From Streptomyces sp. CA-210063 (GTDB lineage: Bacteria; Actinomycetota; Actinomycetes; Streptomycetales; Streptomycetaceae), in assembly GCF_024612015.1 (NCBI RefSeq), contig NZ_CP102512.1, positions 3,906,001-3,970,000 on the forward strand: DNA of 64,000 nt. The letters are read 5' to 3'. The notes under the pieces were generated by a model. That model was not told where the DNA came from and searched no databases. It saw only the letters and a program-made list of their open reading frames with translations. Below are positions 7,057 to 23,686 of this stretch, in pieces. Position 1 is the stretch's first letter, and every line of letters begins with the position of its first letter. A program made the position numbers and the translations under genes.

Positions 7057-7104
7057 TTTCTCAGGCCGTACGACCCAACCGGCGAACGTCGCCGGGCCGC
7101 ACGG

Positions 7105-7260
7105 CCTCCGCCGAGTCCGGTACGCCTCCCGAGGCAGCCGGAGCCGGGGACCCACCGACCTCTGGGGTGAATCGATCCGGCCGCCGTACGCGGCGAGGGT
7201 CGTAGGGCAAACCTTCCGAAGCTTGCGCCCGAACCCGACAGCTAACTCGGTAGGCGGACA
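7105..7260 (+). promoter_or_regulatory. ydaO-type cyclic di-AMP riboswitch
   Basis: The conserved blocks of the ydaO/yuaA class appear in order: CGCCGAGTCCGG (from about 7109), GGAGCCGGGGACCCA (about 7140), GGGGTGAATC (about 7164), CCTTCCGAAGC, then CCCGAACCCGACAGCTAAC and CTCGGTAGGCG (to about 7255). GGAAGGAG follows and the NlpC/P60 ATG is at 7281. In Streptomyces, ydaO switches sit before cell-wall lytic enzymes and turn expression off when c-di-AMP is bound. I see no separate terminator between it and the gene, so how it acts here is open. The second NlpC/P60 gene lacks this element. Confidence 0.93.
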
Positions 7261-7280
7261 ACGGAAGGAGACGCCGAACC

Positions 7281-21677: not shown

Positions 21678-21851
21678 GGGGTGCCTTCCGGCGGTTGGGC
21701 GGGGGTCTGTATGACCGAGTCTACCGGGGGTGCGCTCTCGTGGGGCCGATCACTGGGGGCTCCGCCCCAGACCCCCGAGAACCTTCGCCCACCCACCGAC
21801 CGGGTTGGCTGGAGGAGCAGGCGGTCGAAAGGTGTCGTCGTGTGGTCGTGG

Positions 21852-21857
21852 CATACT
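21852..21857 (+). promoter_or_regulatory. -10 element of the aroQ leader
   Basis: CATACT ends seven bases before the leader-peptide ATG, so transcription may start at or next to that ATG and give a leaderless leader peptide. No strong -35 is visible. Confidence 0.5.
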
Positions 21858-21864
21858 GGCCCCC

Positions 21865-21936
21865 ATGCTCACGCACCCGACCTTCCTCTTTACCTATGGC
21901 AACCGGCCCGCCGGCTGCCATGGTCGTGCTGCTTGA
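21865..21936 (+). CDS. Phe/Tyr-type leader peptide before chorismate mutase
   Basis: A 23-codon open frame with two Phe codons and one Tyr codon within five positions ('TFLFTY', codons 6-11) and a stop 20 bases before a strong terminator hairpin. Two of the three aromatic codons are TTT and TAT, which are rare in this genome. A hairpin at 21896-21921 starts at the Tyr codon. This is the layout of a ribosome-mediated attenuator. The peptide itself is unlikely to have another function. Confidence 0.75.
   Translation: MLTHPTFLFTYGNRPAGCHGRAA
21896..21921 (+). promoter_or_regulatory. pause-type hairpin of the aroQ attenuator
   Basis: ATGGCA (21896-21901) pairs with TGCCAT (21916-21921), with an inner CCGG/CCGG stem. 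It overlaps the Tyr codon, so a stalled ribosome would break it. GGCCCG inside it (21905-21910) can instead pair with CGGGCC at 21966-21971 in the terminator, a candidate antiterminator. Confidence 0.55.
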
Positions 21937-21955
21937 GCTACTGACAAGCGACTTC

Positions 21956-21998
21956 CCAGGCGCCCCGGGCCGACAAGGTCCGGGGCGCCTGGCGTTTT
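21956..21998 (+). terminator. intrinsic terminator in the aroQ leader
   Basis: A perfect 13-bp GC-rich stem (21956-21968 with 21980-21992), 11-base loop, then CGTTTT. It lies between the leader-peptide stop and the aroQ ATG, as expected for an attenuator. Confidence 0.85.
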
Positions 21999-22076
21999 CC
22001 GGATCTTGTCGCTCCGGGAGCCCCTTCCGACGTACGACGTACGACACGACGTACGACTTCCGACGAGGAGCCCCCT

Positions 22077-22358
22077 ATGACCGCCATCGACGTGACCGGC
22101 GCCCGTACCTCCGAGGCCGCCGATGTGATCACCGGTGCCCGTGACCGGATCGACGCGCTGGACGACCGGATCATCGGCCTGATCCAGGAACGGGTGGCGG
22201 TCTCCGCCGTGATCCAGGAGGCGCGGATCGAGTCCGGCGGGCGCCGGGTGAACCTCTCTCGCGAGATGGAGATCCTGGCCCACTACAGGGACGCCCTCGG
22301 CAAGCCCGGTACCGCGCTCGCCATGACCCTGCTGGAGCTGTGCCGGGGGCGCATCTGA
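22077..22358 (+). CDS. aroQ: chorismate mutase, AroQ type
   Basis: A 93-residue all-helical AroQ-class chorismate mutase. 'RDRIDALDDRIIGLIQERVAVSAVIQEARI' territory (residues 22-51) is the long first helix with the catalytic Arg and Lys-like positions, and 'REMEILAHYRDAL' follows. It converts chorismate to prephenate, committing it to Phe and Tyr. The ATG at 22077 has GAGGAG upstream. An attenuator with Phe and Tyr codons lies upstream, which fits end-product control. No other aromatic gene is adjacent. Confidence 0.95.
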   Translation: MTAIDVTGARTSEAADVITGARDRIDALDDRIIGLIQERVAVSAVIQEARIESGGRRVNLSREMEILAHYRDALGKPGTALAMTLLELCRGRI

Positions 22359-22783
22359 CCGGCGCACGCACGTACGCCTGCCCTCTCACCCGTCCGGCGC
22401 GTGACCGTCGTACGACACGCTTCGTTGGTGTGGATGTCCGTGCCAGCCAGGCCCGGGCCCGAAAGAACCACGCGTGGCTCCGTATGGAGCGATGAGGCGT
22501 ACGGATCGTGTCGTGCGCCGTGGGACCTCGCTCCAGGGTGGTGACCGGACGGCAGGGGACAGCAGCCCGGTCACTCAAGAGAACGGCCGGCTCCGGGGAC
22601 GCCCGGGGCCGACCGCGGAATCTGTTCAAGGGTGGCCGGAGCGGTTGCGGAGGCCGTTGCCCATCCCTCACGATGCAGGAACAGACCGCGACCAAAGGTC
22701 CACATCCGATCAAAGGTTCCGCGGCGCACTCCCCCGGCGCCGCTTCGAGGCACCGGCGCTGCCCTGACGTCGGTGCTGACGCA
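22359..22783. other. intergenic region, no gene seen
   Basis: About 425 bases after aroQ with no coding bias in any frame and no recognisable RNA. It separates aroQ from the converging lipoprotein gene. Confidence 0.4.
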
Positions 22784-22819
22784 GAAGGGCCCCGCGACTT
22801 CCGTCCCGCGGGGCCCTTC
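22784..22819. terminator. hairpin terminator downstream of the lipoprotein gene
   Basis: Perfect 13-bp arms GAAGGGCCCCGCG and complement around a 10-base loop. It lies 43 bases past the lipoprotein stop and could also stop aroQ read-through. Confidence 0.75.
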
Positions 22820-22861
22820 GTCACGCCGGGTGGCTCAGCCGGCGACCTTCCGTCGGGTCGC

Positions 22862-23590
22862 TCAGCCGGCGGCCTTCTCCAGCTTCGCGACCTGTGCCTC
22901 CAGCAGCTCGGTCGGCACCTGTGCCTTGTCCGCGTCGAGCATGTTCATCGAGTAGAACCCGATGAGCGTCGAACCGCTGCGCACCACCGTGAAGGACATC
23001 GGTATCTCGGCCCCCTCGATGTCGCCCTTCATCTTGTACGAGACGGCCTCGTCGCCCTGTTCGGGGGCGGGGAGGGCCTCGACGCCGGAGTACTTGTTGC
23101 CGACGTCCTCGTACTTGGTGCACTTCTCCGTCGCCTCGCGCAGGTCGGCGATCACCTTCTCGGCGTCGCTCTGCTCGTGTGCGGCGAGGGCGAGGGAGGT
23201 GACGCTGGCGGAGAGCGCGTCCTCCGGGGTGGCGGTGCGTCCGACGCGGGCCTTCGCCTTCGGGTCCGAGGTGAAGTAGAACATGTTCGCGATGGGCTGG
23301 CAGGCGGCCGGCTCCGCCGGAACGGTCTCGGCGGGCATCTCGTCCGCGGGCATGTCGGCGATCTTGTAGCCCTTGACGTCCCCCTTCGCGAGGGCGGCCT
23401 CCTTCAGCTGGGCCTCGGTCAGCGCCGCCTGCCCCGCCGAGTCCTTCTCGTCCCCGGCGGCCGTGGCGCCGGCCGACGGCTTCGTCTCCGCGCCCTTGTC
23501 CTCGTCGCCGCCCCCACCGCACGCCGCGGTGAACCCCAGCGTGGCCACCACCGAGACGGCCACCGCCGCCCGCGACATCTTCGAGTTCAT
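22862..23590 (-). CDS. secreted lipoprotein of unknown function
   Basis: A 242-residue lipoprotein. The signal peptide ends in a lipobox 'FTAAC' (Cys about 24), followed by a Gly/Asp/Glu-rich tether of about 35 residues and then an alpha/beta domain with two further Cys ('AACQPIANMF', 'ATEKCTKYED') that may form a disulphide. 'IPMSFTVVRSGSTLIGFYSMNM' near the C-terminus resembles the outer domains of the kinases in this window, a weak impression only. The ATG at 23590 follows a GGTGGGGG stretch. A Crp-like palindrome lies about 100 bases upstream. Confidence 0.88.
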   Translation of the reverse strand: MNSKMSRAAVAVSVVATLGFTAACGGGGDEDKGAETKPSAGATAAGDEKDSAGQAALTEAQLKEAALAKGDVKGYKIADMPADEMPAETVPAEPAACQPIANMFYFTSDPKAKARVGRTATPEDALSASVTSLALAAHEQSDAEKVIADLREATEKCTKYEDVGNKYSGVEALPAPEQGDEAVSYKMKGDIEGAEIPMSFTVVRSGSTLIGFYSMNMLDADKAQVPTELLEAQVAKLEKAAG

Positions 23591-23686
23591 GTCCCCCACC
23601 TTCGCCACTTTCGTCACATGCCTCACAGAGGCCTCACCGGCCCCATCAGATCATGTACGTGACATCGAGCAGCAACCGCATTCATC

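Follow-up and report, generated by a model that had tools for sequence, protein, structure and literature searches.

A predicted phenylalanine/tyrosine attenuator before the chorismate mutase gene aroQ in Streptomyces and related leaders before DAHP synthase

Locus and sequence features

The window is a 64 000 nt stretch of Streptomyces sp. CA-210063 (contig NZ_CP102512.1, positions 3 906 001–3 970 000; host genome 10.86 Mb), and all positions below are those of the window unless stated otherwise. The parts of a putative attenuator sit between guaA and aroQ (Table 1). The start of aroQ assigned in the original prediction was borne out by reading the sequence, and Pfam CM_2 matches the product at 32.4 bits (cut-off 27). 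The closest named orthologue in the protein search is from Streptomyces adelaidensis (96%). The product is homologous to the intracellular chorismate mutase Rv0948c (2qbv, E = 4e-12, residues 16–93) and to a second structure (5hub, E = 6e-10); judged by this homology over the catalytic domain, it is an Rv0948c-type intracellular chorismate mutase, the class label of which we take to be AroQ-delta. Short direct repeats of CGTACGAC occupy 22030–22062, downstream of the terminator and ahead of the ribosome-binding site of aroQ.

Table 1
Features of the guaA–aroQ region (window positions)
Feature	Position	Strand	Remarks
guaA	20097–21677	leftward	
-10 box CATACT	21852–21857	+	predicted leaderless promoter, 7 nt before the ATG at 21865
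Leader peptide ORF	21865–21936	+	23 codons, MLTHPTFLFTYGNRPAGCHGRAA and stop codon
Phe7 codon TTC	21883–21885	+	leader ORF
Phe9 codon TTT	21889–21891	+	leader ORF
Tyr11 codon TAT	21895–21897	+	leader ORF
Hairpin H1	21896–21921	+	rival of the antiterminator, begins within the Tyr11 codon
Antiterminator 5' half	21904–21923	+	CGGCCCG, GGC, GCC, TGG
Hairpin H2 GCTTG/CAAGC	21931–21949	+	holds the leader stop codon, caps the antiterminator
Antiterminator 3' half	21956–21972	+	also the terminator 5' arm
Intrinsic terminator	21957–21998	+	stem 21957–21971/21977–21991, 15 bp, loop GACAA, then GCGTTTT
aroQ, chorismate mutase	22077–22358	+	93 aa; Pfam CM_2; own Shine–Dalgarno-like GAGGAG upstream
Next likely gene	22862–23626	opposite to aroQ	

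Two further CM_2 genes are present in the same genome (G000:C1:8000034–8000270 and 6990150–6990356). A strict scan for an aromatic leader found none at the first of these and none at the genome's own class II DAHP synthase; around the locus centre of the second (L250), whose gene frame was not located, no leader was seen on either strand. Searching the genome with model R1 (Streptomyces) at E values up to 10 returned 18 matches, two of them full-length besides the query site. One (L086, E = 0.17), considered as a second copy, was by eye merely a terminator behind a protease-like gene; the other lies at 5394035–5394141 (E = 2.6), and the remaining matches were part-length or antisense.

Three other elements were noted in the window. 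Downstream of aroQ, before the convergent gene, 22380–22620 (+) is a second strongly conserved, structured non-coding element: it was matched in 117 of 118 Streptomyces-genus loci (some partially), showed compensatory changes at 14 of 46 predicted pairs (24 sequences) and gave no Rfam match up to E = 1. The stretch 22740–22830, conserved in 65–77 of 80 loci, contains an inverted repeat and two sub-gathering Rfam matches and may serve both convergent genes as a terminator. A c-di-AMP riboswitch (RF00379, 65.3 bits) at 7099–7271 (+) is the sole Rfam match at gathering level in the window.

Leader reading frame and promoter

A 23-codon frame with Phe, Phe and Tyr at codons 7, 9 and 11 had been described, and direct reading of the sequence confirmed it. 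For comparison, the best 80 of 408 relatives from the protein search were used (79 labelled Streptomyces, one 'Actinobacteria bacterium'). L074, the upstream DNA of which is cut off by the end of its contig, was dropped, and the leader was present at 79 of 79 readable loci. It was located via a pattern requiring Phe9 and Tyr11, which no readable locus failed. Within the 394 genomes of the class sample, 40 belong to the genus (the present one included), and 39 of these carry the leader element together with aroQ, 41–172 nt apart on the same strand; the exception (G285) has neither the element nor this chorismate mutase but has another CM_2 gene.

Across 80 leaders the ATG, Phe9 (TTT in 79), Thr10 (ACC in all), Tyr11 (TAT in all) and Gly12 are each found in 80 of 80. 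Codon 7 is Phe in 77, Tyr in two and Ser in one, and codons 2–5 and 8 are variable. Both fixed aromatic codons are uncommon in the genes of the window: TTT accounts for six of 364 Phe codons (1.6%) and TAT for 47 of 369 Tyr codons (12.7%), the reference being 38 window ORFs taken as genes by their G+C frame pattern. Two relatives, L065 and L069, read the end of the peptide in a different frame but preserve the RNA. The heptamer TTTACCT at 21889–21895 (nt 25–31 from the ATG) is nearly fixed, although it is unpaired in the predicted folds.

The fixed core Phe9-Thr10-Tyr11-Gly12, two residues of which are not aromatic, is what would be expected of an arrest peptide, i.e. a nascent F-x-F-T-Y-G chain that stalls the ribosome on free Phe or Tyr instead of on a shortage of tRNA; TnaC is an example of an arrest peptide. 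We consider this improbable. The nucleotides of the core are conserved as well as its residues, which a peptide would not need; Thr10 is replaced by Ser in L121 and L124, and other families lack an equivalent of this residue (FFYG, RFYGY). Codon 7 is variable, the reading frame of the tail shifts, and induction by a surplus would raise a biosynthetic enzyme while its product was abundant.

The suggestion that the peptide is leaderless is supported. Scoring the best match to TATACT 3–10 nt upstream of the ATG in the 80 sequences placed a -10 box 6 nt (56 sequences) or 7 nt (24 sequences) before the ATG in every case, with CATACT itself in 76, and a Shine–Dalgarno-like word before the leader ATG in none. 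No good -35 element for this promoter was seen in the window; a TTGNNC/TTGGA word is present at -45 to -25 in 54 of the 80. The number of loci that align rises from one of 80 at 21840 to 78 of 80 at 21860, and the mean majority identity (80 sequences) is 0.53 at -60 to -16 and 0.94 at +19 to +60 from the ATG. The DNA is thus conserved from the ATG on and not upstream of it, as expected if the message starts at the ATG, and this conservation rules out a chance origin of the element.

RNA secondary structure

The region 21860–22005 folds at -78.4 kcal/mol, compared with -51.1 ± 3.6 kcal/mol for shuffled sequences (z = -7.7; 0 of 200). The parts, their conservation, their co-variation and the mutually exclusive folds can all be read from the sequence. 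The hairpin described as overlapping the Tyr codon is present. So is the intrinsic terminator, ending at 21998 as given before, with a stem of 15 bp instead of the 13 bp assigned to it. The proposed antiterminator GGCCCG (21905–21910)/CGGGCC (21966–21971) is complementary and co-varies, but the pairing is longer than these 6 bp. Pairing of the first codons with 21922–21938, seen in the minimum free-energy fold, was rejected: GACC at codons 5–6 is not fixed.

Alignment A1 comprised 77 distinct leaders, three duplicates having been taken out of the 80. In it the terminator had 99.7% of cells paired (compensatory changes at two pairs), H2 99.2% (compensatory change at one pair) and H1 97.3% (no compensatory pairs). 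By eye, H2 is replaced in L043 and L077 by another short hairpin, GCTGC/GCAGC. The U-tract of the terminator is weak in part of the relatives, e.g. L005. The structure as a whole does modestly better than shuffles (three pairs with two-sided changes, a value reached by 30 of 500 shuffles, versus 1.1); the excess is only modest because most alignment columns do not vary.

Numbered from the ATG, the antiterminator consists of the pairs 40–46/102–108, 49–51/98–100 and 53–55/95–97. In A1 it is 93.9% paired, against 27–46% when slid, with unpaired cells at six of its 13 pairs (in 9, 6, 6, 32, 7 and 1 sequences). A compensatory change is seen at one pair, a result equalled by 6 of 500 shuffles: C43 to U together with G105 to A in L032, which preserves the antiterminator and the terminator together.

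Related leaders before DAHP synthase

Family f17 of the class contains relatives that model R1 matches over its full length, and all 17 of the f17 leaders so found precede a type I DAHP synthase. Matches of R1 without a leader ORF (L129, L132, L134, L137, L144, L145, L148, L152–L155 and L158) were set aside as terminator matches, antisense or chance, and L141 and L143 were left out as near-identical to L140 and L142. A second model, R2, was built from 16 of the 17. At E ≤ 0.001 it matches 194 of 200 f17 genomes, some of which may be matched through the terminator alone, and it recovers the window's own element (E = 7e-15, 58.7 bits, where terminator-only matches score up to 41). Of the R2 matches listed, 60 were fetched, for the most part a single one for each genus. 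DAHP synthase follows all 58 matches from f17 and one match from f8 (L247); it does not follow the match in family f2 (L248), which has no leader.

Typical leaders of this group read FWRFYGYRP or FWFWYGDGP. As aligned, 56 of 59 start with ATG or GTG and none of the 59 is preceded by a Shine–Dalgarno-like word. The sequence that best resembles TATAGT is 7 nt upstream in 30 of the 59 (range 6–14 nt), and the resemblance is often weak; L248 was left out of this count.

The first 74 of 105 rows of alignment A4 were used, the others being terminator pieces or reverse strand, and 72 were scored for pairing (all except L241 and L246). The pair of columns 42/146 is G-C in 43, A-U in 21, G.U in five and A.C in three, and the next antiterminator pair is C-G in 67, U.G in four and U-A in one. 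The P values for these counts are descriptive and take no account of relatedness; the DAHP synthase leaders give stronger co-variation evidence for the antiterminator than the Streptomyces set. Leaders paired worse with terminators of the other clade, the clades being defined partly from the paired bases themselves (about -15.6 versus -19.5 kcal/mol, with -14.0 kcal/mol for shuffled sequences). A leader paired no better with its own terminator than with same-clade terminators (-19.7 and -19.4 versus -20.0 and -19.3 kcal/mol), so that the co-variation is visible between clades only.

Leaders before chorismate mutase in other families

Of a further 40 chorismate mutase loci, two were second Streptomyces copies, and 38 belonged to other families and came from 37 of the 83 matching genomes. 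A short ORF containing an in-frame Phe-Tyr pair was found at 26 of the 38, in ten families, and at neither of the two second Streptomyces copies. The six-base Phe-Tyr motif alone occurs at 30 of 40 loci on the forward strand versus three of 40 on the reverse. The mean folding energy of the 34 nt that follow the motif is -16.2 kcal/mol, compared with -12.5 (s.d. 3.3) kcal/mol when shuffled, a modest excess. A stricter scan, requiring three aromatic residues in seven codons, gave 17 versus two, with two of the 17 looking unrelated. At several f18 and f4 chorismate mutase loci no intrinsic terminator was obvious by eye, so the output step may differ there. From these comparisons, the element is confined neither to Streptomyces nor to chorismate mutase.

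The unusually high sequence conservation in Streptomyces, which includes unpaired positions, might point to direct sensing of Phe, Tyr or their tRNA by a riboswitch or T-box, the ORF being a by-product. This is extremely unlikely: outside Streptomyces little is shared beyond the aromatic codons and a hairpin, and no Rfam family reaches its gathering score at the element. Four matches obtained in 21700–22120 with a relaxed threshold (E = 0.02–0.13) were discarded, being far below gathering and from unrelated families, none of them a T-box.

Sensor codons and end products

Trp occurs within the first 13 codons in 68 of 74 DAHP synthase leaders versus four of 64 chorismate mutase leaders, a contrast the P value of which is likewise descriptive and takes no account of relatedness. 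The four comprise three of 38 from Streptomyces and one of 26 from elsewhere, the latter with an uncertain start. The 64 lie outside the named set of 77 distinct Streptomyces leaders, none of which contains Trp. Some of the six DAHP synthase leaders that lack Trp (L227, L243 and L246) look mis-framed. DAHP synthase serves Phe, Tyr and Trp and chorismate mutase serves only Phe and Tyr, so that this contrast is the one predicted for end-product sensing; the sensor codons track the end products of the target enzyme.

Another 40 loci were scanned for aromatic ORFs. Outside f17, they were found at three of six loci of type I DAHP synthase (L301, L302 and L303, from three families, with the Trp-containing YWRF in G188, YYWFTW in G368 and YRWF in G095, the last two adjoining a -10-like word), at the f8 DAHP synthase locus and at one of eight f17 chorismate mutase loci (YFVF, G099); ORFs without a -10 were found at one of five second type I f17 copies and one of 20 class II loci. 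The plain scan did not exceed its control (7 of 40 loci forward versus 9 of 40 reverse), whereas requiring a -10 on both strands gave four versus one. That one is L326, on the reverse strand by a class II DAHP synthase of a Streptomyces-genus genome; it reads MFALSIQNWWWTAHPAAH and is close to S. lividans TrpL1. In the five Streptomyces genomes tested the DAHP synthase is of class II, and none of them has a type I enzyme.

The chorismate mutase leaders of the three genomes G188, G368 and G095 read FFYG or FYYG. These genomes point to a Trp contrast within one genome as well, although the scan does not amount to proof of it. Whether one ancestral aromatic attenuator sits class-wide on both gate enzymes, its codons rewritten for each target and sometimes present at both in one genome, is in our estimate an even question. 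Such an element, with Phe and Tyr codons at chorismate mutase and Phe, Tyr and Trp codons at type I DAHP synthase, may be the principal way in which aromatic amino acids feed back on transcription in this group of bacteria. Since the codon content of related leaders changes with the end products of the enzymes behind them, these leaders offer a natural test of attenuator retargeting.

Predicted switching

The transcription start, translation, stalling, termination and physiological signal of the following scheme are deduced from anatomy and evolution. On this basis it is very probable that aroQ is under the control of a ribosome-mediated transcription attenuator. RNA polymerase would start at, or right beside, the first base of the leader ATG, giving a leaderless message on which a ribosome would load. 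With charged tRNA-Phe and tRNA-Tyr plentiful, the ribosome would get to the stop codon within H2 and there mask the 5' half of the antiterminator, so that the 15 bp terminator could form before aroQ. If Phe (mainly through codon 9) or Tyr were short, the ribosome would wait at codons 7–11 and H1 would be blocked; 21904–21923 could then pair with the terminator's 5' arm as it emerged, the polymerase would read through, and more chorismate mutase would be made, feeding Phe and Tyr synthesis.

The alternative folds were modelled with only the ribosome-free RNA allowed to fold, the ribosome edge being assumed at the first base of the A site + 13 and the RNA being out to nt 110 or 118. With no ribosome, H1 formed with probabilities of 0.97 and 1.00 at nt 110 and 118, respectively, and the terminator with 0.96 at nt 118. 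With Phe9 in the A site the antiterminator formed with 1.00 at both lengths and the H2 cap with 0.93; with Phe7 in the A site the antiterminator values were 1.00 and 0.88. A stall at Tyr11 left only the inner antiterminator, and the upper part of the terminator reached 0.97 at nt 118. With the ribosome at the stop codon only the terminator formed (0.96 at nt 118). The folding model favours Phe9, and not Tyr11, as the best-placed sensor codon.

Among the 77 leaders, the terminator arm was captured (at least 0.5) in 77 with a stall at Phe9, in 19 with no ribosome and in 94 of 385 cases with shuffled spacers. For the DAHP synthase leaders, leaving out L212 and L246, which had no terminator according to the finder, the antiterminator reached at least 0.5 in 68 of 72 when the ribosome stalled at codon 6 and in 62 of 72 when it stalled at codon 8, in 45 of 72 without a ribosome (41 in the codon-8 test) and in 72 of 360 shuffled controls (70 in the codon-8 test). 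In these leaders the fold model separates the states poorly, and the contrast is weaker than in Streptomyces.

Once the whole transcript is out, the terminator wins in every case, and the decision must therefore be kinetic. A very strong terminator that forms in every complete fold of the model could also be a constitutive terminator or RNA-stability element, setting a fixed low level of aroQ or protecting the message, with the leader incidental. We judge this very unlikely: it leaves unexplained the fixed aromatic codons, the promoter fixed beside the ATG, the co-varying antiterminator and the Trp codons of the DAHP synthase leaders. Attenuation by a stalled ribosome remains the preferred reading. 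The alignment across relatives, which could have refuted the original prediction, found the Phe/Tyr codons and the stems both conserved, and a Phe/Tyr attenuator before aroQ is supported by the fixed codons, the stems that hold, some compensatory changes and the conserved leaderless promoter. The compensatory changes observed suggest ready-made mutants for a test of the mechanism.

Comparison with known systems

The accessible part of PMC1262725 reports finding no conserved RNA structures ahead of the phenylalanine or tyrosine operons of Actinobacteria. Eight leaders are given for S. lividans (Table 4 of PMC8079986: two for leucine, two for tryptophan and one each for alanine, isoleucine, methionine and threonine); none is a Phe or Tyr leader, and the accessible text of that source does not mention chorismate. 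Chorismate and Rv0948c are likewise absent from the available portion of an article on attenuation in M. tuberculosis (PMC13236596), and chorismate from the main text, as far as available, of PMC8914203, PMC4681348, PMC3765725 and PMC2422843. Among the matches listed in a search of open-access titles and abstract openings, none dealt with a leader peptide preceding chorismate mutase in an actinobacterium. The element would thus be a Phe/Tyr attenuator of the classical kind, new for its chorismate mutase target as far as the searches go.

The Streptomyces trp, ilvB, leuS, trpS and other leaders resemble the present one in being short peptides with regulatory codons and hairpins, and several are described as leaderless, according to the sections available of PMC1262725 and PMC8079986. 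In the S. coelicolor ilvB leader, substitution of the candidate codons was without effect (PMC1262725, in the part available), so a leader of such a kind has failed a codon test before.

A close parallel is aroR-aroF of Corynebacterium glutamicum (Neshat et al., 2014), the leader of which contains Phe-Tyr-Phe and responds to Phe and not to Tyr, as described in the available parts of PMC11802643 and PMC4046766. It is also an actinobacterial Phe/Tyr leader at a shikimate-pathway gene and acts by stalled-ribosome attenuation. Its target, however, is DAHP synthase and not chorismate mutase, and, going by the description of aroR, its codons are Phe-Tyr-Phe, while most of the DAHP synthase leaders found here add Trp. 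E. coli pheL-pheA resembles the present element in having a leader that reads charged tRNA-Phe and chorismate mutase activity downstream (PMC11802643, accessible part). Its target is the bifunctional chorismate mutase-prephenate dehydratase, whereas aroQ encodes a stand-alone mutase, and, unlike pheL, the leader described here would be leaderless and mixes Phe and Tyr codons.

The analysis gives Streptomyces, and probably much of the class, a predicted Phe/Tyr-responsive switch that is not reported in the accessible part of PMC1262725 and is missing from the RNA-seq-based leader table for S. lividans in PMC8079986. The enzyme that it would control feeds Phe and Tyr, the precursors of many natural products.
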